Shown here piece after piece: positions 1-8,490 of a DNA stretch of 8,490 nucleotides. The number at the start of each line of letters is the position of its first letter. Position 1 is the first letter of the stretch. Source of the DNA: Anaerolineaceae bacterium (lineage in GTDB: Bacteria > Chloroflexota > Anaerolineae > Anaerolineales > Anaerolineaceae); NCBI GenBank assembly GCA_014860845.1, contig JACZIY010000612.1, positions 1 to 8,490 of the forward strand, read 5' to 3'. The notes below the pieces were generated by a model. The model searched no databases, had not been told where the DNA came from, and was given only the letters and a program-made list of their open reading frames with translations. A program made the translations under genes and the position numbers.

Positions 1-240
1 AGCTCTGGTTCCATAGCAGTAGGGATCATTCTGGGCTCATATTTCATATCCATTATTGCCGGAATGAACGAGAACTTTGAATTCCTCAAGCATTTCACGC
101 CCTTTTACTATTACGACGCTGGTGAAATCTTCCGCACAGGCCAATTGAACACAACCTATGTGTGTGTATCCGTTGCCATCATTGTGGTATGTTTGATCGT
201 CGCCTATTCTGTCTACAACCAACGCGATTTGAATATGTAA
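1..240 (+). CDS. ABC-2 type transporter permease, C-terminal fragment
   Basis: This reading frame is open from the first base and ends at TAA 238-240, giving 79 residues of a protein that starts outside the window. Two hydrophobic membrane-spanning stretches are visible, at about residues 1-21 and 54-75. They are joined by a polar loop containing FTPFYYYDAGEIFRTG, and the protein ends in a short polar tail (YNQRDLNM). A loop with 'TPF.Y.....I', a last helix and a Y..RDL ending are typical of the last part of ABC-2 family permeases, the membrane subunits of ABC exporters. The substrate cannot be told from this fragment, and the ATPase partner is expected upstream, outside the window. The gene converges on the SDR gene, with a GC-rich palindrome directly behind its stop codon. 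The family call is by sequence style only. The membrane-protein nature is clear; the exact family is less so. Confidence 0.75.
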   Translation, partial: SSGSIAVGIILGSYFISIIAGMNENFEFLKHFTPFYYYDAGEIFRTGQLNTTYVCVSVAIIVVCLIVAYSVYNQRDLNM

Positions 241-246
241 ATGTTC

Positions 247-267
247 GGGCGGGTTCAGAACCCGCCC
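247..267. repeat. GC-rich perfect palindrome between convergent genes
   Basis: GGGCGGGTTC (247-256) is followed by one A and then its exact reverse complement GAACCCGCCC (258-267). In RNA this gives at least an 8-bp, mostly G:C stem with a 5-base loop. It sits 6 bases after the permease stop, and the next base begins the SDR stop codon (268-270), so it could act as a terminator or transcript-stabilising hairpin for both genes. There is no T-run on either strand, so it is not a classic intrinsic terminator. From memory, palindromes of the TAGGGGCGGGTT...AACCCGCCC type are dispersed in many copies in some Chloroflexota and other genomes. That it is a family member is an inference. Confidence 0.6.
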
Positions 268-1251
268 CTACATACCATACGCCTTTAAAATCCGTTCGAT
301 TTCGGCGTGATCAGCTGTGTCAACTTTGCATCGTTCCGGATCGGCTTCAAACTGGGCAATGGTGCGCTTGATGCCCTGGTGGAAGGGGATCACCGCCTGA
401 TACTCAGGTACATAGCTCTTGATCTTGCTATTATCAAAAATCACGCTCCAGCTCTTATCACCGATCAACGTGCCCAGATAATCCGGTGCAACTGTGACGA
501 TGAACTCGGATGCGATATGCACAATGTTTGGCTCCACGCCAACGGCTGACCCAATGGCGCGATAGATGTCATTCCAGGTCAGGCGTTCATCTGATGTGAT
601 GTGGAAGGCTTGACCCAAAGTTCCTGGATGCCCGAGCAATCCCAGAAATCCAACTGCGAAATCATCGGCATGCGTGACCGTCCATAACGACGTACCATCC
701 CCATGCACAATCACCGGCAAACCCTTGCGCATCCTGTCCACAATGGTGAACTTATCCCAATCTCCAACCGCAATCGGGATGTATTTATCATAGGTATGCG
801 AAGGACGCACGATCGTCACCGGGAAACCCTGCTCACGATAGGCCTGTATCAGACGCTCCTCACAAGCAATTTTATTGCGCGAGTACTGCCAGAAGGGATT
901 GTGCAACGGGGTCGATTCGCGGATGATCACACTGCTGGGTGGTTTCTGATAGGCAGATGCTGAGCTGATGAACACAAACTGCCCGGTTTTGCCTGCGAAG
1001 AGCGCAAGATCACGTTCGATATCCTGCTGAGTGAAGGCAATCCAGTCCACCACCACATCAAAAGTCTCATCCCCCAACACATTCTGGGTCTGTGCCAGAT
1101 TGTGAAAATCCGCAGTCAACCAGCGAGCACCAGGGATGTCCACCTGTGTCTTGCCGCGATTGAGCAAGGTCAGCTCAATGCCACGCGCAATCGCCAGTCT
1201 GGAAACGGAGGTGCTGATGTTACCACTGCCACCAATGAAGATTACTTTCAT
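268..1251 (-). CDS. NAD-dependent epimerase/dehydratase-like SDR protein
   Basis: A 327-residue protein of the extended/atypical short-chain dehydrogenase/reductase type. The N-terminus is a Rossmann beta-alpha-beta unit with the dinucleotide-binding loop GGSGNIS at residues 7-13, followed at the end of beta-2 by LLNRGKT, where the arginine suggests possible NADP preference. The segment DVVVDWIAF fits the fourth strand, VFISSASAYQ (about 93-101) supplies the catalytic-site serine, and YSRNK places the YxxxK pair at Y123 and K127, 24 residues after S99. All expected active-site residues are therefore present. The C-terminal third (WTVTHADDFAVG onward) is the substrate-binding part, so the substrate cannot be named; a nucleotide-sugar or similar small molecule is likely. 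The start has a purine-rich site (AGAGGA) 6 bases upstream. It lies 125 bp downstream of the YjjG-like gene on the same strand. That gap has only a poor promoter-like pair (TTTTAA 17 bp from TATATA, plus-strand positions 1283-1311). Confidence 0.88.
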   Translation of the reverse strand: MKVIFIGGSGNISTSVSRLAIARGIELTLLNRGKTQVDIPGARWLTADFHNLAQTQNVLGDETFDVVVDWIAFTQQDIERDLALFAGKTGQFVFISSASAYQKPPSSVIIRESTPLHNPFWQYSRNKIACEERLIQAYREQGFPVTIVRPSHTYDKYIPIAVGDWDKFTIVDRMRKGLPVIVHGDGTSLWTVTHADDFAVGFLGLLGHPGTLGQAFHITSDERLTWNDIYRAIGSAVGVEPNIVHIASEFIVTVAPDYLGTLIGDKSWSVIFDNSKIKSYVPEYQAVIPFHQGIKRTIAQFEADPERCKVDTADHAEIERILKAYGM

Positions 1252-1376
1252 TTTGGATCCTCTTTCTTCAGGGAGCCCCTGATATATAATCTTTTTGGGT
1301 ATTACTTAAAAGGAATGTTCAGATTGGTAACGAATGTCTGTTTAAATTCTATCAAAATCGGAGCAGAATAAAATCG

Positions 1377-2072
1377 TTAAGCGTGACCAATCTTGAGGAT
1401 AACGAGCAACTCTGCCAGATCACGGATCTCATACGTAATCGGGTAGCCATTCTTATCCTGCTCACCGCGCGGGTTATACCAGCAGGTATTCAATCCATAC
1501 CCCACACCACCAGCCATGTCCGAACTGAGGCTATCCCCAATCACCAGCACATTTTCTTTGGCGGGTTGCCCGATCCCGGCGAAAACGGTGTCAAAGAAAC
1601 CCTGCGCAGGCTTGAACACTCCGATGGCTTCCGAGGTGAAAATAAACGGAAAATAGCGCCCCAACCCAGACAACCGGATGCGTGAATGCTGCACATCATT
1701 AATCCCATTGGTAATGATCGCCATGCGGAAACGACCCTGCAATTGGTCCAACACCTGCAGTGTCCCCGGAATCAAATGTGTCGATCGCCCCAGGTAATGC
1801 AGATAGGTCTTGCTGAATTCCAATGCATCCTGATCGATCCCCAACTCAACAAACAGATCCGCAAAACGTTGCCAGCGCAAATCCATCAGCGTGATTGTCT
1901 GTTCTTCGAGTCGTTTCCACATCCCCTGGTTGATACGTTTGTAAGCCGTAGCTGCTTCTTCATTAAATGACAGCTTGTAATGCGCGAACACGTTCTGCAG
2001 CGCTTCCTCTTCCGCGCCATCATAAGCAAACAGCGTTCCATCAGCGTCGAATAATAGCCAGTTATAGGGCAT
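1377..2072 (-). CDS. yjjG: YjjG-type HAD hydrolase (pyrimidine 5'-nucleotidase)
   Basis: A 231-residue HAD superfamily phosphatase with a helical cap, close in length and pattern to E. coli YjjG, which dephosphorylates dUMP, dTMP and non-canonical pyrimidine nucleotides and so cleans the nucleotide pool in the cytoplasm. All four catalytic motifs are visible. Motif I is FDADGTLF with nucleophile D9 and acid/base D11. Motif II is IITNG with T121. Motif III is the lysine of VFKP, K154. Motif IV is GDSLSSD with D180 and D185. The family-typical ITNG, SE..GVFKP, GG...GL.TCW.N pattern supports YjjG over a generic HAD protein. The start has GGGAG 6 bases upstream. It is the first gene after the repeat-bounded element and probably has its own promoter close to the element's edge. 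The exact substrate in this organism is an inference. Confidence 0.87.
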   Translation of the reverse strand: MPYNWLLFDADGTLFAYDGAEEEALQNVFAHYKLSFNEEAATAYKRINQGMWKRLEEQTITLMDLRWQRFADLFVELGIDQDALEFSKTYLHYLGRSTHLIPGTLQVLDQLQGRFRMAIITNGINDVQHSRIRLSGLGRYFPFIFTSEAIGVFKPAQGFFDTVFAGIGQPAKENVLVIGDSLSSDMAGGVGYGLNTCWYNPRGEQDKNGYPITYEIRDLAELLVILKIGHA

Positions 2073-2091
2073 AATTTACTCCCAGGTTTAG

Positions 2092-2120
2092 TATTTAACA
2101 ATTGTAATAGTTTTTTACAA
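2092..2120 (-). promoter_or_regulatory. Weak candidate promoter for the yjjG-like gene
   Basis: On the minus strand TTGTAA (2120-2115) and TAAATA (2097-2092) are separated by 17 bp and lie upstream of the ATG at 2072. Both boxes are poor matches to the sigma-70 consensus. The same bases also contain a 6-bp AT inverted repeat (2102-2107 with 2115-2120). The site ends exactly where the repeat-bounded element begins at 2121, so an insertion there would have spared it. Confidence 0.22.
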
Positions 2121-2143
2121 AGTTTAAAGTGGACAGTTGACAG
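2121..2143. repeat. Left outer inverted repeat, 23 bp
   Basis: This is a perfect reverse complement of 2817-2839. It starts AGTTTAAAGTGGAC and ends in GTTGACAG. Pairing stops at the next base on both the outside (2120 versus 2840) and the inside (2144 versus 2816). Confidence 0.9.
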
Positions 2144-2187
2144 TTGAAAGGGAAAAATAGTCGATAGTCGACAGTTGACAGTTGAAA
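2132..2187. repeat. Left-arm direct repeats with 38-bp period
   Basis: The 18-base word GACAGTTGACAGTTGAAA occurs at 2132-2149 and again at 2170-2187, exactly 38 bp apart. Each copy is two tandem ACAGTTG heptads (2133-2146 and 2171-2184) followed by AAA. The spacer contains ATAGTCGATAGTCG, itself a small tandem duplication. The same heptad core appears in reverse orientation in the right arm. Confidence 0.85.
2164..2185. repeat. Left inner inverted repeat, 22 bp
   Basis: ATAGTCGACAGT followed by TGACAGTTGA matches the reverse complement of 2785-2806 at 21 of 22 positions; the single difference is T versus G at the thirteenth base. The distance from the outer repeat is 20 bp here and 10 bp in the right arm, so the two arms have diverged by insertion or deletion. 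Confidence 0.85.
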
Positions 2188-2204
2188 CCTTGAGCCTGTC
2201 AACT
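2173..2204 (-). repeat. Short hairpin behind the four-helix bundle gene
   Basis: AGTTGACAG (2173-2181) pairs with CTGTCAACT (2196-2204), leaving a 14-base loop. A second overlapping palindrome, CTTGAG (2189-2194) with CTCAAG (2203-2208), competes with it. On the minus strand this lies 12 bp after the stop codon of the four-helix bundle gene (2217-2219), where it could shape or end its transcript. No T-run follows, so a terminator role is uncertain. Confidence 0.45.
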
Positions 2205-2216
2205 CAAGACTATCTT

Positions 2217-2675
2217 CTATTCAACTTTTAGATTACGGTGAAACGCTGTAATTAGTTTTGATATTTCAATTGCTTGATTGTCAAGTTGATGAAAATCTTT
2301 ATCGGAAATCCAGCCTTTTTTTAGAAAAATTTCTAATAATGTCATGGTTTCGTAAAGTGAACCTCGAGCAATCATTAGGAAATGTTTTAATTCTTTTGTT
2401 GAGTGTCTGCCTTTTCCCTCGGCAATATTCATTGGAATGGAAGTAGCAGCGGCTTCCAGTTGTTCCACCAACCTGTAATGTTTTCGGTTTGAAGCGAGAT
2501 TCTCAGCGTGGTCAATCACATTACTGGCAAACTCAATACTCTTCTGCCAGACAATCAGATCTTTATAGGGAAGTTGATAAGGTTGTGGAGTAGATGATGT
2601 TTTTTCAGGTTTGTTGCTAGTCATCAATAATGTTACCTTTCTGTATGATGGATTTTTCGCGTTACCTTTACCCAT
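2217..2675 (-). CDS. Four-helix bundle protein, S23/23S rRNA intervening-sequence family
   Basis: A 152-residue protein whose region from about residue 33 onward matches the S23 four-helix bundle family. It shows YKDLIVWQKSIEFA at the first helix, the conserved SIPMNIAEG (about 79-87, E86) and ISKLITAFHRNL in the last helix. Family members are encoded by intervening sequences inside 23S rRNA genes of some bacteria and also occur as orphan genes; Avd proteins of diversity-generating retroelements are distant relatives. The molecular role of orphan members is not known, although basic surfaces suggest nucleic-acid binding. The first ATG at 2675 has no clear ribosome site. M18 (ATG at 2624) follows AGAAAGG by about 11 bases and gives 135 residues, closer to the usual family length, so the first 17 residues (MGKGNAKNPSYRK...) may not be translated. 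The gene is alone inside an inverted-repeat element and separates two otherwise adjacent minus-strand genes. Confidence 0.9.
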   Translation of the reverse strand: MGKGNAKNPSYRKVTLLMTSNKPEKTSSTPQPYQLPYKDLIVWQKSIEFASNVIDHAENLASNRKHYRLVEQLEAAATSIPMNIAEGKGRHSTKELKHFLMIARGSLYETMTLLEIFLKKGWISDKDFHQLDNQAIEISKLITAFHRNLKVE

Positions 2676-2735
2676 TTTACATAAGAATTATTTTTCCAAA
2701 CGCATTTTTTAACTTTTGACTTTCCATTATTAGTC

Positions 2736-2793
2736 ATTTTCCCCTCTCAACTGTCAACCGTCAACTTTTAACTATTTTCCCCTCTCAACTGTC
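2736..2793. repeat. Right-arm direct repeats with 38-bp period
   Basis: The 20-base word ATTTTCCCCTCTCAACTGTC occurs perfectly at 2736-2755 and 2774-2793, again with a 38-bp period. A third, weaker copy of its CAACTGTC core follows at 2821-2828. These lie upstream of the four-helix bundle gene on its own strand. The period equals that of the left arm, although the repeated words are not identical. Confidence 0.85.
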
Positions 2794-2806
2794 CACTGTC
2801 GACTAT
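2785..2806. repeat. Right inner inverted repeat, 22 bp
   Basis: This is the partner of 2164-2185, matching its reverse complement at 21 of 22 positions. It contains a GTCGAC palindrome (2798-2803). Confidence 0.85.
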
Positions 2807-2816
2807 TTCTTAATCC

Positions 2817-2839
2817 CTGTCAACTGTCCACTTTAAACT
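2817..2839. repeat. Right outer inverted repeat, 23 bp
   Basis: This is the perfect reverse complement of 2121-2143. It ends 7 bp before the stop codon of the neighbouring HAD gene (2847-2849), so the element begins almost immediately after that coding sequence. Confidence 0.9.
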
Positions 2840-2846
2840 ATAAACA

Positions 2847-3515
2847 TCACCTCTTGCCCAAAATTTCCCATTCTTTAAGTATTGCTTCTTCCAATAAGCG
2901 CTGATCCGGATACACCGCCACCGGATGCTCGGCGTTTTCCAGCAAGGGTATGTCCATGAATGTGTCTCCATAGGCATAATCGACACGTTCCACCCCTAGC
3001 CGCGTCAGCACTTCATGGATCTTACGTTCGCTCTTGATCAAGCCATCCACCAGGCGCACCTTACCACCCTCAATCATCACCGGAGACCCGATCGCTTGCA
3101 CACCAATTCGCCGGGCAAAGGCATCCGCAATCGGCTGGACGACGCTACTGGCGATGTAGACCTGCGCACCTTGCTGAACATGCTCCTGCAAACGTGTGAT
3201 CACGTCCTCGCGACGTTTCAACCAAAGATTATGTTCCACCGCCCATTCGCATGCCTGGGCAAACTTCTCCTCGTCCATATCCTTCAACCAGGTCAGGCTC
3301 TTGACCATCAAGCCCTGCCCCCACGGCTGTGGATCAATCAATCCCAGCTTGACCAGCAGGTAGCTCGGCATCATCGAAGCCAGCAACCAGCGCGCCTGCG
3401 CCTTGCTTTGGTGCACCTTAATCCAGTCCAACAACCCCAGGATTGGGGAGCCGGTGGTCAGTGTACCCATCATGTCGGAGATAACGATCATGGGATGAAT
3501 TATAACAGAGCCCAT
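2847..3515 (-). CDS. HAD-superfamily protein, SerB-like, with altered motif I
   Basis: A 222-residue cytoplasmic protein with the HAD-IB layout: motif I near the N-terminus, a helical cap of about residues 25-105, then the core. Motif I reads SDMMGTLT, keeping the nucleophile D14 but having M16 where phosphatases carry the second, acid/base aspartate. Motif II is YIASS (S123), a lysine-rich LIKSERK near 160 can serve as motif III, and motif IV is YGDTFMDIPLL with D184 and D188. The rest of the active site looks intact, so it may be a slow phosphatase, a different kind of transferase or a binding protein. Two starts are possible. M1 at 3515 has GGAG 10 bases upstream; M9 at 3491 lies 7 bases after a perfect TATAAT and places D14 six residues in, which is more usual. 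It follows the giant secreted protein by 28 bp and probably shares its transcript. The substrate is unknown. Confidence 0.82.
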   Translation of the reverse strand: MGSVIIHPMIVISDMMGTLTTGSPILGLLDWIKVHQSKAQARWLLASMMPSYLLVKLGLIDPQPWGQGLMVKSLTWLKDMDEEKFAQACEWAVEHNLWLKRREDVITRLQEHVQQGAQVYIASSVVQPIADAFARRIGVQAIGSPVMIEGGKVRLVDGLIKSERKIHEVLTRLGVERVDYAYGDTFMDIPLLENAEHPVAVYPDQRLLEEAILKEWEILGKR

Positions 3516-3543
3516 GGTCGTTCTTCTCCGACAAAAGGTATTA

Positions 3544-6500
3544 TTAACGCATCGTTAATGGCAGGAAGACCGCGTAAGTATTATCCACCTGCGCCTGTAT
3601 AAAATTACTAAAATCTGATTCAAACCCATCTCCTGCGTAAGCCACCACAGCATACTGATAGCTTTCACCAATCACAGCAGTCAGGTCAACAAATCCCAGA
3701 CCAAAACTACTACCAACAGGTTTAAATATCCTGCCATCGCTGGACCGATAGATCCGGTAACCAGCTACAGCCTCATGCTCGACCGCCTGCCATTCCAGAA
3801 AAACAGAAGAATCGCCAGGTTGAGCTGCACCAATCAACCCCTGGGGAGCTGGTAAGCCGCCTATGGGTACCGTGTGAGTATTGTTTTCATAATTACTTTC
3901 CGGGATGAGTTGTTCATGATTAACCTGAACATACAACACATGCGGGAGGTGCGGGGCTGCAGGCAAAATGAGCGAATCATCAGTCGTGGAGAATTCAGCC
4001 AATATCATTCCCCCGGCTTCGATGGGAATCGGTATCAATAGACTTCCAGCAGGCTCACCTGATCCGGCCAGTGCATCCCAGGTCAGTCTGATTTCCAGCT
4101 GACCACTATCCCGATCACTGGCAAAAAGTGGTCCATTATTCGAAATGGAAACCACAACTGTCAGAGGATCACCACTCACTTGCAGATTGGTGGTATTTGG
4201 ACTTACTGAGGAGACTGAAAAATCTGAGGTGGCACTGTTCACAGAGAAAGCCAGGGGGGATGCAATTTCATCTATGGCGGCTATATCATATCCCATCAAT
4301 TCCAGAGTAGTCTTCATTTGTTGTGAATAGATCGGGCTACTGCCTAGCGAGCTTACCGAATAGGTTTGATTGAACAGTGAATCATAAACCGCTGTTGGCT
4401 GCCAGACCGTCTTGCCACCATTGTTTTGGTAGGTTGGGGCAATTGTGGTGATCGTATTGTTAGAGAAGCTAACAAATGCTTGCGCGATTTCCCCGGTTCC
4501 GATGACAGTCCCCAATGGGTCGCCTGGTAAAACAGTCGGACCACCGGGATCTGCAGCTCCAAATCCCAATGCCCGATAGGTAATCTGCGCTTGCCCATTG
4601 GAATTCATCGTCAACACCGGGCTTTCGGCATGAATTGGGCGGGCATTCGAATCAATCAAAGCACTATATGACCAGGAGCAGCCAGATTCTCCACAGGTCT
4701 GTTTTGCCGCGTATAACAGGCGTTGGTTGCCCACCAATGCCTGTGGATCTGTGGCCACGGTAAAAGCCAGGATCATTTCTCCCGCGGTATCAACTTTCAA
4801 TGAAGGCTCCACGGCTGCTACAGGCAGGCTGGTCAAGGCATTAATTGGGCTTCCTCCTGTTAGTTGGCGATGGTAAATTTGACGGTCATCAACCGTGCTT
4901 AAGTCACTGTCAGCATCTCGTATCCAAACAACCTGTGCTGTTCCTGAGTTTGAATAAGCTACGCTGGCTTCAGCATCTGTTCCATTACTGGTGGAGTCAA
5001 TTGCGGTAATCGAACCCCATGTTGCGCCATTGAAAACAGCAGAGAAAAGGTGAAATTGTCGTTCTGTCAAATTACTAACCGTATTACGCACCCAGATAGC
5101 TGTGACTTCACCATTGGCTGAACATCCGGGTTGAGTACTCTGACAACCAGCCAGGGCAACTCGGCCCTCACCATTGCTATCTTCAGGTGAGGTTAAGTTT
5201 TGAGGTGCACTCCAACCTGTGCCATTCCATAAGGCGTATTGGAGGTGTTGCGCCTGAATAATTTGCTCCAGGGTAGCTGTTTCGGATTCTGCAGCAGACG
5301 CCAGACCGCTCTCCGTCCAGACGGCTATAGCCTTATTAGGTGCATAAAAAGCAACCTGTGGATCGATACCACCCATACTGGAACTGACCTGGTAGACCCC
5401 AATTGTTTGTCCTCCAGACATCAGTCGGGATTGTATATTGTTATTGTCATCAGACCATACTAGCAAGGTGTGACCAAACCCATCAACAGCCAATGCTGGA
5501 GAAGCTGTTGGTGGTGGAGGTGATTCGACAGTGACTAATTTCTGATCCAGTAGTGCATTTGCCGTTGTGGGCAATGTACATGGGTCAGGGTTTGATCCAT
5601 TAAATATATGCTCAGTCCCGGATTTTTTTAGACAAAATGGACAAATACCTGCTTTTGCTGACCATGATACATCTAATTTGTAAAGAAAACATTTCTTTGA
5701 ATCCGACAAATTCCCATTTACAAAAGAAACCGGCATACCAAGGCCAATATTTGGAAGTGCGTGTGCATTTGCACTGATTAACCCAAACAAAACACTCAGG
5801 TCAATGAAGGCGTCCACACCAACAGTGGCTTTCGGAAAAACCAGCATGTTGGTTGAGGTGCCACCTCCAGGTAAAAATTGAATCAATCCACTGGTCGTAA
5901 GAGTAGCATTAAACCACATATCCGCCCCCAGGGTTGCCCCTGCGATGGGTGGAATCCCCATCACATACCGGTAAATGGGGAATTTCCCAGTGTCTAACAC
6001 AGGTATCGTCTTTTCGGGAATATCAATTTCAATTCCACCTGCTACACTACTATTGTATTTTTTTGATGGCCATACAGATTCATCCAGAACTTTTGTGTTC
6101 ACCGTGCCATCATAAACAATACCGGTTGTGTGATCCGGATATAGGTATTGATGGACACTATCATTGAAATTCACGTTATTCCCCATGGGACCGACTTTCG
6201 GGATATCAGTATCTAAATTAGAATTTGATCCAGGGTCACCTGAAGGAAATTGGTAACCATAAATTCCGATATTACCGCCACCAAGGAATATTGATTTTTC
6301 TTTGTATTTCGCGTCAAGGACCCAGGTTGGTGCTGCGACAAAATTTAACTGGATATAATGCTTTGTAATATTTGGGACAACAGCCTGATCACTGATTTCG
6401 ATCAAACCCGTGTGGTTGCCAGGTAGCATTCGGATCATTTTATCTTGCGGAATCGTAGCCTTATAAACCACTGCTTCACATCCCGCCTGACCCGATTTTT

Positions 6501-8304
6501 TGCCTTTATTAACAAATGGATAAACCTGCCCCTCCAGTGTAAATTTGGCATTACTCTCATCCAATGCCCCAAATAGAGCCGGGTCGTATTGGAACTCAAC
6601 ATCCACAGCACCATCTCCTGAAAATAGGGTATTCGGGAATTGTGAAATGGGAAATGAGTAAAAATTTCCGAAGGCAATCATCGGAATGCCAGTTCCGACA
6701 TAATTCTGATAACTACCAACAACCGGAGCAGCATTACTACTAAGTGAGTGAGGTTTGATTTTTGGAACAATAGGCGCGGTGATTTTCGTGCCTGCTGGAA
6801 GAGATTTCAAGCTTACCACCAATGGATTCGTATTGACTGTTTGATTTGTATCAGCATTATAAAATAGGTGGGTAAAACCGCTAAACCGTATCGGTAATTC
6901 AAATGGTTCAGCTAGTCCTTTATTTCCAAATCCCAGATAGGTCGCATTGACATACAATGGGAATTCAATCGTCATCGGGTTTTCGATGTACACGGGTTCA
7001 GGCAAATTTCCCAAAAATACTTTCTTGCCCAACATGGCAATCATTTCGGGTTCAATTTTTACCTCAAAAATTCCTTCACTGTTTGTGCGCCCATACGTAC
7101 TTGTCATTTGACAGGTAAATGGATCTGATTCGCTTGTGCTTGCCTGACCAATGAAATCAGTAATCTGGTTTGGATGAATTTCCAGATTGTTAAGTTGATT
7201 TTTCATCGTTAAACCAGAAGTTGTTTCTCCACCCAATTGCTTATCGGGGCTGGCAAAAAAAGCGCGCACATCCACAATAGCTCCCTGAATTGGATCACCA
7301 TTCTCATCCACAACCTTTACCTTAAACACCGGATTCGGTGGATCCAGCCAGGGGACAACCTGCAAATTGGAGTTTGTCCCATTCTGTTTATTAATAAAAA
7401 CGACTCCCACCTGACCTCCACTCTCAGCACTGGGTAGGAGCGGATCACCCCCTAATAAGGAGGGTGCTTTACCTGTAATGATGAATGATCCATCTGAAAA
7501 TAGCTGGGGAGTTCCAACCGTGATGGGCACAATTTGTCCAGAACCAGATTTCCATAGTATTTTTAGATCGAATAAATTTAATGGTCCGAGCGGTGCAGGA
7601 CTGATCGTTCCCTGCAAGGTGAATGGAAAACCGGGGGAAACTGGGTCTTGCGGAAAATCATTCACCTGGATCTCGTATGTGGCAGGTAGTGGGGATTCAG
7701 CCACAAAAAAAGTAAGCGCCCTGCCTAAAATTTGATTGCCAACCAGGTTGAAAGCTGTCAGGGCAACATCCTGTGGAAATGTACTTGGGCGATCTGCCGG
7801 AATCTGAAAATCGCCCTCAAAAACTCCCGCCTGCACATCCACAGGACCAAAAACTGGCACACCATCATAATCCAATCGTAATTGACCAGCCAGCAGATTA
7901 TTCGCGGTGAAATGGGTGATGGTTCCGGGAGGGCCACTATTGGGCTGCAAATCGATCGTCATGGCAGGCATAACCGTGATAGTTGTGGTGATATCGTTCG
8001 GTGCAGCCAGCACATCATATGTGCCTGGATTGATGACCGGCAAAGAAAATCCTCCAAAAAAATTTCCGGCTGAGTCAGTCAAAATTGTGCCCAGAAACTC
8101 GCTTGAAGGCAATTGAAGGTATAAATCCACGCTCGAATCGGGGGTAAAACCGAAACCAGAAAACATCACTTCTCCACCAGGCATGACCAACGATGGTGAT
8201 GCAAAAAATTCTGTGGTTGCTTCGGCTGCTACCACTCTGACAGGAATATACTGAAATAATAATGATATTAAGATTATCGAAACCAGGGTACTACGCTTGT
8301 TCAT
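3544..8304 (-). CDS. Giant secreted multidomain protein (Ig-like, propeller-like, CARDB, Fn3)
   Basis: A 1586-residue protein exported by a Sec signal peptide (MNKR, a hydrophobic core at residues 7-20, likely cleavage near VVAA or AEA at 27-29). Two Ig/IPT-like repeats cover about 31-110 and 114-201 (SPSLVMPGGEVMFSGFGF and QPNSGPPGTITHFTANNL). A CarboxypepD-reg/Ig-like strand set starts near 324 (FKVKVVDENGDPIQGA). Residues 440-860 are beta-rich and unrecognised. Four cysteines cluster at 872, 888, 891 and 909, then a Pro-rich linker (926-935). About 935-1320 holds five or six propeller-like repeats with VW/IW cores (LLVWSDD, IAVWTES, TAIWVRN, VVWIRDA). A CARDB-like domain covers about 1360-1476 (VSISNNGP...ESNYENNTH), and a fibronectin type III-like domain about 1482-1570 (VFLEWQAV...GYRIYRSSDG). 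It ends in YAVFLPLTMR. No catalytic site is evident, so a surface adhesin or binding role is likely but unproven. A strong ribosome site, GAGGAGG, lies 7 bases upstream. Confidence 0.85.
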   Translation of the reverse strand: MNKRSTLVSIILISLLFQYIPVRVVAAEATTEFFASPSLVMPGGEVMFSGFGFTPDSSVDLYLQLPSSEFLGTILTDSAGNFFGGFSLPVINPGTYDVLAAPNDITTTITVMPAMTIDLQPNSGPPGTITHFTANNLLAGQLRLDYDGVPVFGPVDVQAGVFEGDFQIPADRPSTFPQDVALTAFNLVGNQILGRALTFFVAESPLPATYEIQVNDFPQDPVSPGFPFTLQGTISPAPLGPLNLFDLKILWKSGSGQIVPITVGTPQLFSDGSFIITGKAPSLLGGDPLLPSAESGGQVGVVFINKQNGTNSNLQVVPWLDPPNPVFKVKVVDENGDPIQGAIVDVRAFFASPDKQLGGETTSGLTMKNQLNNLEIHPNQITDFIGQASTSESDPFTCQMTSTYGRTNSEGIFEVKIEPEMIAMLGKKVFLGNLPEPVYIENPMTIEFPLYVNATYLGFGNKGLAEPFELPIRFSGFTHLFYNADTNQTVNTNPLVVSLKSLPAGTKITAPIVPKIKPHSLSSNAAPVVGSYQNYVGTGIPMIAFGNFYSFPISQFPNTLFSGDGAVDVEFQYDPALFGALDESNAKFTLEGQVYPFVNKGKKSGQAGCEAVVYKATIPQDKMIRMLPGNHTGLIEISDQAVVPNITKHYIQLNFVAAPTWVLDAKYKEKSIFLGGGNIGIYGYQFPSGDPGSNSNLDTDIPKVGPMGNNVNFNDSVHQYLYPDHTTGIVYDGTVNTKVLDESVWPSKKYNSSVAGGIEIDIPEKTIPVLDTGKFPIYRYVMGIPPIAGATLGADMWFNATLTTSGLIQFLPGGGTSTNMLVFPKATVGVDAFIDLSVLFGLISANAHALPNIGLGMPVSFVNGNLSDSKKCFLYKLDVSWSAKAGICPFCLKKSGTEHIFNGSNPDPCTLPTTANALLDQKLVTVESPPPPTASPALAVDGFGHTLLVWSDDNNNIQSRLMSGGQTIGVYQVSSSMGGIDPQVAFYAPNKAIAVWTESGLASAAESETATLEQIIQAQHLQYALWNGTGWSAPQNLTSPEDSNGEGRVALAGCQSTQPGCSANGEVTAIWVRNTVSNLTERQFHLFSAVFNGATWGSITAIDSTSNGTDAEASVAYSNSGTAQVVWIRDADSDLSTVDDRQIYHRQLTGGSPINALTSLPVAAVEPSLKVDTAGEMILAFTVATDPQALVGNQRLLYAAKQTCGESGCSWSYSALIDSNARPIHAESPVLTMNSNGQAQITYRALGFGAADPGGPTVLPGDPLGTVIGTGEIAQAFVSFSNNTITTIAPTYQNNGGKTVWQPTAVYDSLFNQTYSVSSLGSSPIYSQQMKTTLELMGYDIAAIDEIASPLAFSVNSATSDFSVSSVSPNTTNLQVSGDPLTVVVSISNNGPLFASDRDSGQLEIRLTWDALAGSGEPAGSLLIPIPIEAGGMILAEFSTTDDSLILPAAPHLPHVLYVQVNHEQLIPESNYENNTHTVPIGGLPAPQGLIGAAQPGDSSVFLEWQAVEHEAVAGYRIYRSSDGRIFKPVGSSFGLGFVDLTAVIGESYQYAVVAYAGDGFESDFSNFIQAQVDNTYAVFLPLTMR

Positions 8305-8311
8305 CAGATTG

Positions 8312-8318
8312 CCTCCTC
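8312..8318 (-). promoter_or_regulatory. Strong Shine-Dalgarno site of the giant secreted protein
   Basis: GAGGAGG on the minus strand stands 7 bases before the ATG at 8304, close to ideal spacing. It fixes the start and, together with the signal peptide immediately downstream, leaves little doubt about the N-terminus. Confidence 0.85.
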
Positions 8319-8490
8319 ACAAATAGATCAAATTTAATCTAATTCAAATATCTATCACTTGCTTGTTAAGTTGTAATAACTGATAATGTTGGGGAGAATA
8401 ATGCATAAATTAAGAAAAAAAACCGCAAACCAGAATCCGTGGATGCAGTGCTGCGATGTAAATATATATTGGATAAATTTTACCTAATAG
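8319..8490. other. AT-rich upstream region with no clear gene
   Basis: Beyond the ribosome site the window ends in AT-rich sequence. It holds the weak promoter pair, an A8 run at 8415-8422 (a T-run on the minus strand without a convincing stem), and a tiny plus-strand frame (8401-8487, 28 codons). I see no supported gene, repeat or RNA here. It is probably the leader of the giant gene plus spacer. Confidence 0.5.
8342..8369 (-). promoter_or_regulatory. Weak candidate promoter for the giant secreted protein
   Basis: On the minus strand TTAACA (8369-8364, five of six bases like TTGACA) and TTGAAT (8347-8342, four of six like TATAAT) are 16 bp apart, ending 37 bp before the start codon. The surroundings are AT-rich, so chance matches are likely. 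It is offered only as the best sigma-70-like pair in this stretch. Confidence 0.3.

Follow-up and report, generated by a model that had tools for sequence, protein, structure and literature searches.

An S23-family gene between inverted heptamer arrays in an Anaerolineaceae contig and the recurrence of this layout at other loci

The DNA analysed, referred to here as the window, is the whole of positions 1 to 8,490 (8,490 nucleotides, forward strand) of contig JACZIY010000612.1 from the Anaerolineaceae bacterium assembly GCA_014860845.1. It contains an intact gene for an S23-family four-helix-bundle protein, placed, as the initial annotation had described, between two protein genes of the same strand, both of which belong to the HAD family (Table 1). 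The S23 protein scores 110 bits against PF05635 (cut-off 33.8, E 8e-32) and 106.8 bits against TIGR02436 (cut-off 24, E 6e-31), and its structural relatives, matched by sequence only, are PDB 2GSC and 2RLD. The array 5' of the gene consists of three register copies of a 31-nt block built from 7-bp repeats, and its outer end adjoins the stop codon of the gene upstream of S23. Read by eye, the repeat unit is approximately CAGTTGA in gene sense, which differs from the automated unit words AATAGAT and AAAGTAG. Elsewhere in the window, positions 3544-8304 of the minus strand hold an ORF of 1586 aa, whose start looks signal-like by eye and which has no Pfam match at E 0.001.

Table 1 Features of the S23 locus and its flanks in the window
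Feature	Position	Strand	Basis
YjjG-type HAD pyrimidine nucleotidase, downstream of S23	1377..2072	-	TIGR02254 over cut-off
Array 3' of S23 gene, inverted relative to 5' array	2121..2187	-	Repeat family D4, inverted pairs I1-I8
Outer arm, perfect 23-bp complement of 2817-2839	2121..2143		Inverted pair I6
Short local inverted copy beside 3' array, 81 % to 2156-2181	2196..2221		Inverted pair I9
S23-family four-helix-bundle gene, 152 aa	2217..2675	-	Intact ORF; PF05635 and TIGR02436 over cut-off
5' array, degenerate inner continuation	2707..2741	-	Repeat family D3, inverted pair I1
Array 5' of S23 gene	2742..2845	-	Repeat family D1 and sequence
Outer arm, perfect 23-bp complement of 2121-2143	2817..2839		Inverted pair I6
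HAD-type hydrolase, HAD-IB-like, upstream of S23	2847..3515	-	PF12710 over cut-off; TIGR01490 below cut-off

The perfect outer inverted pair noticed at the outset is present, as is the inner pair matching at 21 of 22 positions (2164-2185 / 2785-2806), and both pairs are parts of longer arms built of direct repeats at heptamer spacing (families D1 and D4). Over 58 nt (2128-2185 / 2747-2804) the arms match at 84 %, and in full they span 2121-2187 and about 2707-2845. Their score is 31, and 1000 shuffles of both flanks gave no score above 14. The AT-rich composition also reported is seen as a GC dip, with 0.35 in 2251-2750 against 0.44-0.56 in 500-bp intervals ending by 2250 or lying within 2751-3500. 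The ORFs between the arms are the S23 gene and a 62-aa antisense ORF, and no transposase was recognised there, S23 being the one of these ORFs that was profile-scanned.

The layout of an S23 gene between inverted arrays is a general architecture. In a first survey, contigs were scanned with the window protein and the best 80 of 330 confirmed matches gave 78 loci; for the comparison (n = 78) the window was added and L058, which has a short flank, was left out. An inverted pair with a score of at least 13 lies across the S23 gene in 56 of these loci; of random positions with the same geometry in the same loci, 2 of 468 have one. In a second survey this set was extended with additional copies found in these genomes, in their relatives and on cyanobacterial plasmids, which brought it to 174 distinct S23 genes, two of which were dropped for short flanks. 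Among the remaining 172, an own inverted pair is present in 115, compared with 13 of 516 cross-locus pairings of left and right flanks, and a direct-orientation pair in only 23. The best upstream period in the 115 paired loci is 7 in 63, 14 in 26 and 8 in 13, and 83 of the 172 loci have period-7 arrays on both sides of the gene. Arm detection was gapless and gene starts were assigned by rule, so that single units and scores are approximate; L077, for example, scored 16 in the first survey and 11 in the second. The claim that gene and inverted ends form one recurrent unit is supported by the paired arrays and, as described below, by their borders. The suggested conservation of the flanking structure and of its ends applies to the inverted-array layout, kept in these 115 of 172 genes, and not to the sequence, since the unit words differ and are specific to the copy.

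By record title, positive lineages include Anaerolineaceae, Desulfobacteraceae, Omnitrophota, Synergistaceae, Bacteroidales, SAR324, Oscillospiraceae, Cloacimonadota, Wirthbacteria, Pirellulaceae, Acidobacteriaceae, Selenomonadaceae, Ignavibacteria and Magasanikbacteria, these labels being names of metagenome-bin records that may be wrong. S23 matches were also obtained in one phage record and in 17 plasmid records, mostly cyanobacterial, six of which were examined in detail. Plasmid arrays with the units GTGTAGG, GGGAACA and GGTGACA occur in Calothrix (L210, L211), Nostoc (L212, L213) and Anabaena (L214), and the Calothrix plasmid locus L215 fails the paired-array threshold. The L214 cassette (2122-2899) separates cas6 from cas4 in a type I-D CRISPR operon; the plasmid locus L216, considered as an empty version of this site, was rejected, as it has a different 273-bp stretch between flanks that are 98.8 and 99.3 % identical.

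The unit is largely private to each copy and common to its two arms. The 83 loci with period-7 arrays on both sides have 66 different kinds of left unit, and the units of the two arms agree within one mismatch in 64 of the 83 when one is inverted, in 3 of the 83 in direct orientation and in 309 of 6806 cross-locus comparisons. The trinucleotide TAG occurs on the gene-sense strand in 40 of the 83 loci and on the opposite strand in 4, where base shuffling would give about 17. Within each of four genomes examined copy by copy, the copies have mostly unlike units (by eye).

The unit also follows the protein. Agreement was scored as the best of four arm comparisons, within one mismatch. In pairs of loci with no shared flank protein it was found in 9 of 9 pairs with S23 identity of at least 70 %, in 67 of 122 at 60-70 %, 80 of 371 at 50-60 %, 31 of 542 at 40-50 % and 81 of 2233 below 40 %, and in a Mantel test of unit against protein over all pairs none of 999 permutations was as strong. 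That the unit tracks the protein between unrelated sites shows joint transmission of the gene and its arrays. Where a flank protein is shared, agreement was seen in 11 of 18 pairs at identities of at least 70 % and in 27 of 38 at 60-70 %, so units can also change in place. The link between unit and protein does not by itself demonstrate binding, and shared descent could account for it instead of recognition.

Comparison of sites places the borders of the unit at the arrays. Locus L003 contains two cassettes, each complete and 81 % alike, which occupy separate intergenic positions at a distance of 1.8 kb, and their alignment ends inside the arrays. Loci L004 and L005 are one site in two related genomes, whose flanks (87-89 % identity) align up to the arrays and again beyond them; the S23 genes lie outside the aligned blocks and the units differ. 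The site of the window cassette also contains S23 in L001, with unchanged orientation and a related unit, and in L002, where a 71 %-identical S23 is reversed and the unit is AAAGGCG. The genome G014 was considered as an empty version of this site and rejected, as S23 is absent and another sequence with an ORF is found there. In two genomes of one genus, a 495-bp segment of 96.6 % identity, which includes an array hairpin before an S23 gene, is surrounded by unlike flanks (L243 / L249); the L243 copy directly follows a tRNA-like gene (by eye).

An empty-site search, as proposed in the initial annotation, thus found no clean empty site for the window among L001, L002 and G014; for other copies, both filled and tight (empty) junctions exist between murD and murG. 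This junction, recognised by Mur ligase and glycosyltransferase 28 domains, is the query site in the genus of G088 (66 genomes), and 41 examples were classified by eye, namely L252 and a non-random set of 40 picked for having both flanks on one contig. Seven of the 41 hold S23 with arrays on both sides, and nine are tight, six of these being stop/start overlaps. One junction has S23 with a left array only (L325), one an S23-like ORF without arrays (L332), and two have gene-less arrays, unpaired in L353 and in the form of an inverted hairpin in L357. The site is also an insert hot spot in the genus: other inserts occupy 21 of the 41 junctions (L326-L331, L333, L335-L348), and a small multidrug-resistance-type ORF is present in all three of these that were scanned. 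The seven S23 proteins are 78-89 % identical and, with dN of 0.06-0.14 and dS of 0.38-1.72 over 21 pairs, S23 is under purifying selection at murD-murG. The S23 proteins of L321 and L322 are 87 % identical and their arrays read AGGTTTT and AAGCTTT, a change found on both arms, with one AGCTTTT copy kept in the right arm of L321. No target-site duplication was apparent by eye at the murD-murG junctions, and no transposition or excision event was seen in the compared loci.

A second gene family has a similar setting. The GxxExxY family (TIGR04256) was sought in 15 of the S23-bearing genomes and found in 12, and own inverted pairs flank 14 of 23 loci compared with 9 of 506 cross-locus pairs, the best period often being 8-10 (29 of 30 loci were given, and six were set aside as truncated). 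At L028 (7118-7992) a GxxExxY gene occupies the site that is filled by an S23 cassette in L003; this locus scored 12, just below the threshold, and longer inverted stretches are visible. L264 is also among the GxxExxY loci bracketed by inverted short repeats. The two kinds of locus are alike in having inverted short repeats across the gene and differ in protein family, and GxxExxY loci are possibly a parallel cassette family.

Gene and arrays co-occur at unrelated sites, and the arms mostly share a unit, which can change on both arms between related copies. We consider the S23 locus of the window to be probably one copy of a widespread mobile or selfish cassette, composed of an S23 gene between inverted arrays of a mostly 7-bp unit of TAG type. 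The cassette would be a small element whose S23 protein recognises its own arrays. The median pI of the surveyed S23 proteins is 8.7 (quartiles 6.8 and 9.1), and a basic pI would suit nucleic-acid binding in many of them. The tandem form of the arrays, together with the joint change of unit, suggests DNA-level copying between the arms, and slippage plus foldback may be how their identity is kept. Cassettes would persist where they are sense-oriented between operon genes, and an S23-bearing intervening sequence of 23S rRNA would be an insertion of this kind in an rRNA gene. A more far-reaching version, put forward tentatively, is that of a new kind of mobile element, in which S23 would recognise its own heptamer in an array that renews itself, both arms would be rewritten jointly at the DNA level, and protein and unit would co-evolve into private specificities; solo arrays would then be traces, S23-bearing rRNA intervening sequences one landing place and GxxExxY cassettes a parallel lineage.

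The S23 locus might instead be an RNA cassette of the intervening-sequence type, with arms kept by pairing in the transcript and RNase III cutting the cassette out, and insertion inside operons or rRNA would then be harmless because of the excision. In the available excerpts of PMC4990558, the intervening sequence of Coxiella 23S rRNA is described as having a terminal stem of 28 bp and an S23 ORF preceded by three tandem GACAGAT heptamers and as being cut by RNase III, and a Xanthomonas S23-family protein as a homopentamer; no mention of heptamers tied to S23 genes outside rRNA was found in these excerpts. The likeness proposed in the initial annotation holds for the S23 ORF, for the complementary ends able to form a stem and for the tandem heptamers before the ORF that are described for Coxiella, all present in the window. 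It does not extend to location, as the window cassette lies outside any 23S rRNA gene, between HAD genes, and it differs further in that the gene is flanked on either side by arrays whose unit is specific to the copy. No 23S gene was accepted at any surveyed locus by a crude test with four short motifs (up to two mismatches); matches were scattered over six loci, and since at most one motif kind was seen per locus, none was taken as a 23S gene.

An mRNA context, as first proposed, is consistent with the other copies, most of which lie between protein genes and are sense-oriented. Of the 172 genes, 27 without two usable neighbours were left out; in the remaining 145 loci, S23 has the direction of both neighbours in 116 and is opposed to both in 6. 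With a stricter gene call at 77 loci, co-directionality was found for 45 of 58 S23 genes, 339 of 518 of all other genes and 73 of 129 small genes, so the sense excess of S23 over ordinary genes is moderate. The window RNA folds at -207.3, compared with -154.2 (sd 7.6) for 20 shuffles (z -6.96), with the terminal arms paired, and removal of the RNA after transcription, one of the possibilities first raised, is possible on this ground. The arms themselves do not have the corresponding signature. Their mismatches were 106 of G-U type and 137 of A-C type (114 loci, one of 115 with arms over 130 nt being left out; binomial p 0.054), and no sign of sense-RNA pairing was found in them; as G-U is not preferred over A-C, it is not clear that the likeness of the arms is maintained by sense-RNA pairing. 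In addition, the antisense S23 of L002 stands at the window's own site, and a tandem 7-bp periodicity is unnecessary for pairing. We regard the RNA cassette as unlikely.

It is improbable that S23 is an ordinary gene whose protein binds the arrays to regulate its own synthesis and which was duplicated and inherited jointly with its control region. This would agree with the tracking of protein by unit, with the polarity of TAG on the gene-sense strand and with the conservation of S23. It leaves unexplained the mirror copy behind the gene, the copy-specific units seen by eye within one genome, and the borders at gene junctions in different sites.

Arrays and S23 genes are also found apart. Paired arrays are missing from 57 of the 172 S23 genes, of which 24 have a one-sided array and 33 none; the array threshold was reached by 48 of 1500 random 250-mers. 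Among 61 relatives of HGW-Chloroflexi-3, TAGSTSR arrays were found in 11 genomes and S23 in 36, and only 10 of 71 TAGSTSR clusters (array positions thinned within runs) lie within 700 bp of S23. For none of 20 solo arrays examined did an inverted partner reach score 13 (best 12), and no strand bias was seen in these 20 (6 same/same against 5 opposite/opposite). The presence of S23 was not associated with that of any TAGSTSR array (8 of 36 genomes with S23, 3 of 25 without, p 0.5); three or more clusters occurred in 7 of 36 genomes with S23 and 0 of 25 without (p 0.035), at a cut chosen post hoc. In G096, G074 and G080 (L359-L377), dispersed short gene-less elements with inverted TTAGCNN-type arrays occur in many copies per genome, and have a GGGCGGGACACCCGCACCCGAT core in ten loci examined by eye among the matches listed. 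The 61 clusters away from S23 and the gene-less pairs indicate that arrays can exist without S23 beside them. Most S23 genes have paired arrays, yet arrays need no adjacent S23, and the initial annotation, which had held that genes without repeats or repeats mostly without the gene would speak against a single element, is to this extent qualified by the 33 array-less genes and the 61 outlying clusters.

These arrays might be dispersed host repeats of the REP kind, with S23 genes merely among them, an explanation for which the 61 of 71 clusters away from S23 speak and which we consider very improbable. The solo arrays lack the inverted partner that most S23 genes have (0 of 20), and the two arms at a gene have a common unit that is mostly absent from other loci. 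In REP/RAYT systems, a gene is flanked by inverted repeats and single repeats are dispersed without the gene. The S23 loci are similar in having a gene between inverted repeats, as in the window and the surveyed copies, and single arrays dispersed in relatives' genomes, and they differ in the tandem 7-bp form of the arrays, in a unit that varies by copy and in the lack of a recognised transposase, the RAYT transposase domain being absent from the five window proteins scanned. The same five proteins contain no reverse transcriptase domain beside S23, which sets the window apart from diversity-generating retroelements, whose Avd protein is a four-helix-bundle relative of S23 proteins. The heptameric repeats of cyanobacteria (STRR) are intergenic direct 7-bp repeats, a likeness that the S23 arrays share with them and with the TAACTGA repeats of Beggiatoaceae. 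In the available excerpts of PMC4679880, heptamer repeats of Beggiatoaceae, cyanobacteria and others are described as being without known cause, which would suit host repeats; one inverted case of TAACTGA is mentioned there, and a repeat-binding protein is considered as a possible mobile element. The terms "S23" and "four helix" are absent from that text, and TIGR02436 is unmentioned in the open-licence literature searched. No report associating heptamer arrays with S23 genes was found in the available parts of the open-licence literature, and one may exist elsewhere. Chance repeats or an assembly artefact have a negligible probability: many of the source records are metagenome assemblies, but the shuffle, random-position and cross-locus controls speak against this, as does the occurrence of the layout in plasmid records that are complete by title.

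Genes for S23 and other four-helix-bundle proteins are common and their function is unknown, and the heptamer repeats of bacteria are an old puzzle; with the association described here, each gains a testable partner. The likely target of S23 is written beside its gene and many units exist among the loci, so that specificity can be tested with natural pairs. If the proposal of a mobile or selfish cassette is true, the S23-bearing intervening sequence of 23S rRNA would be one case of a general cassette.
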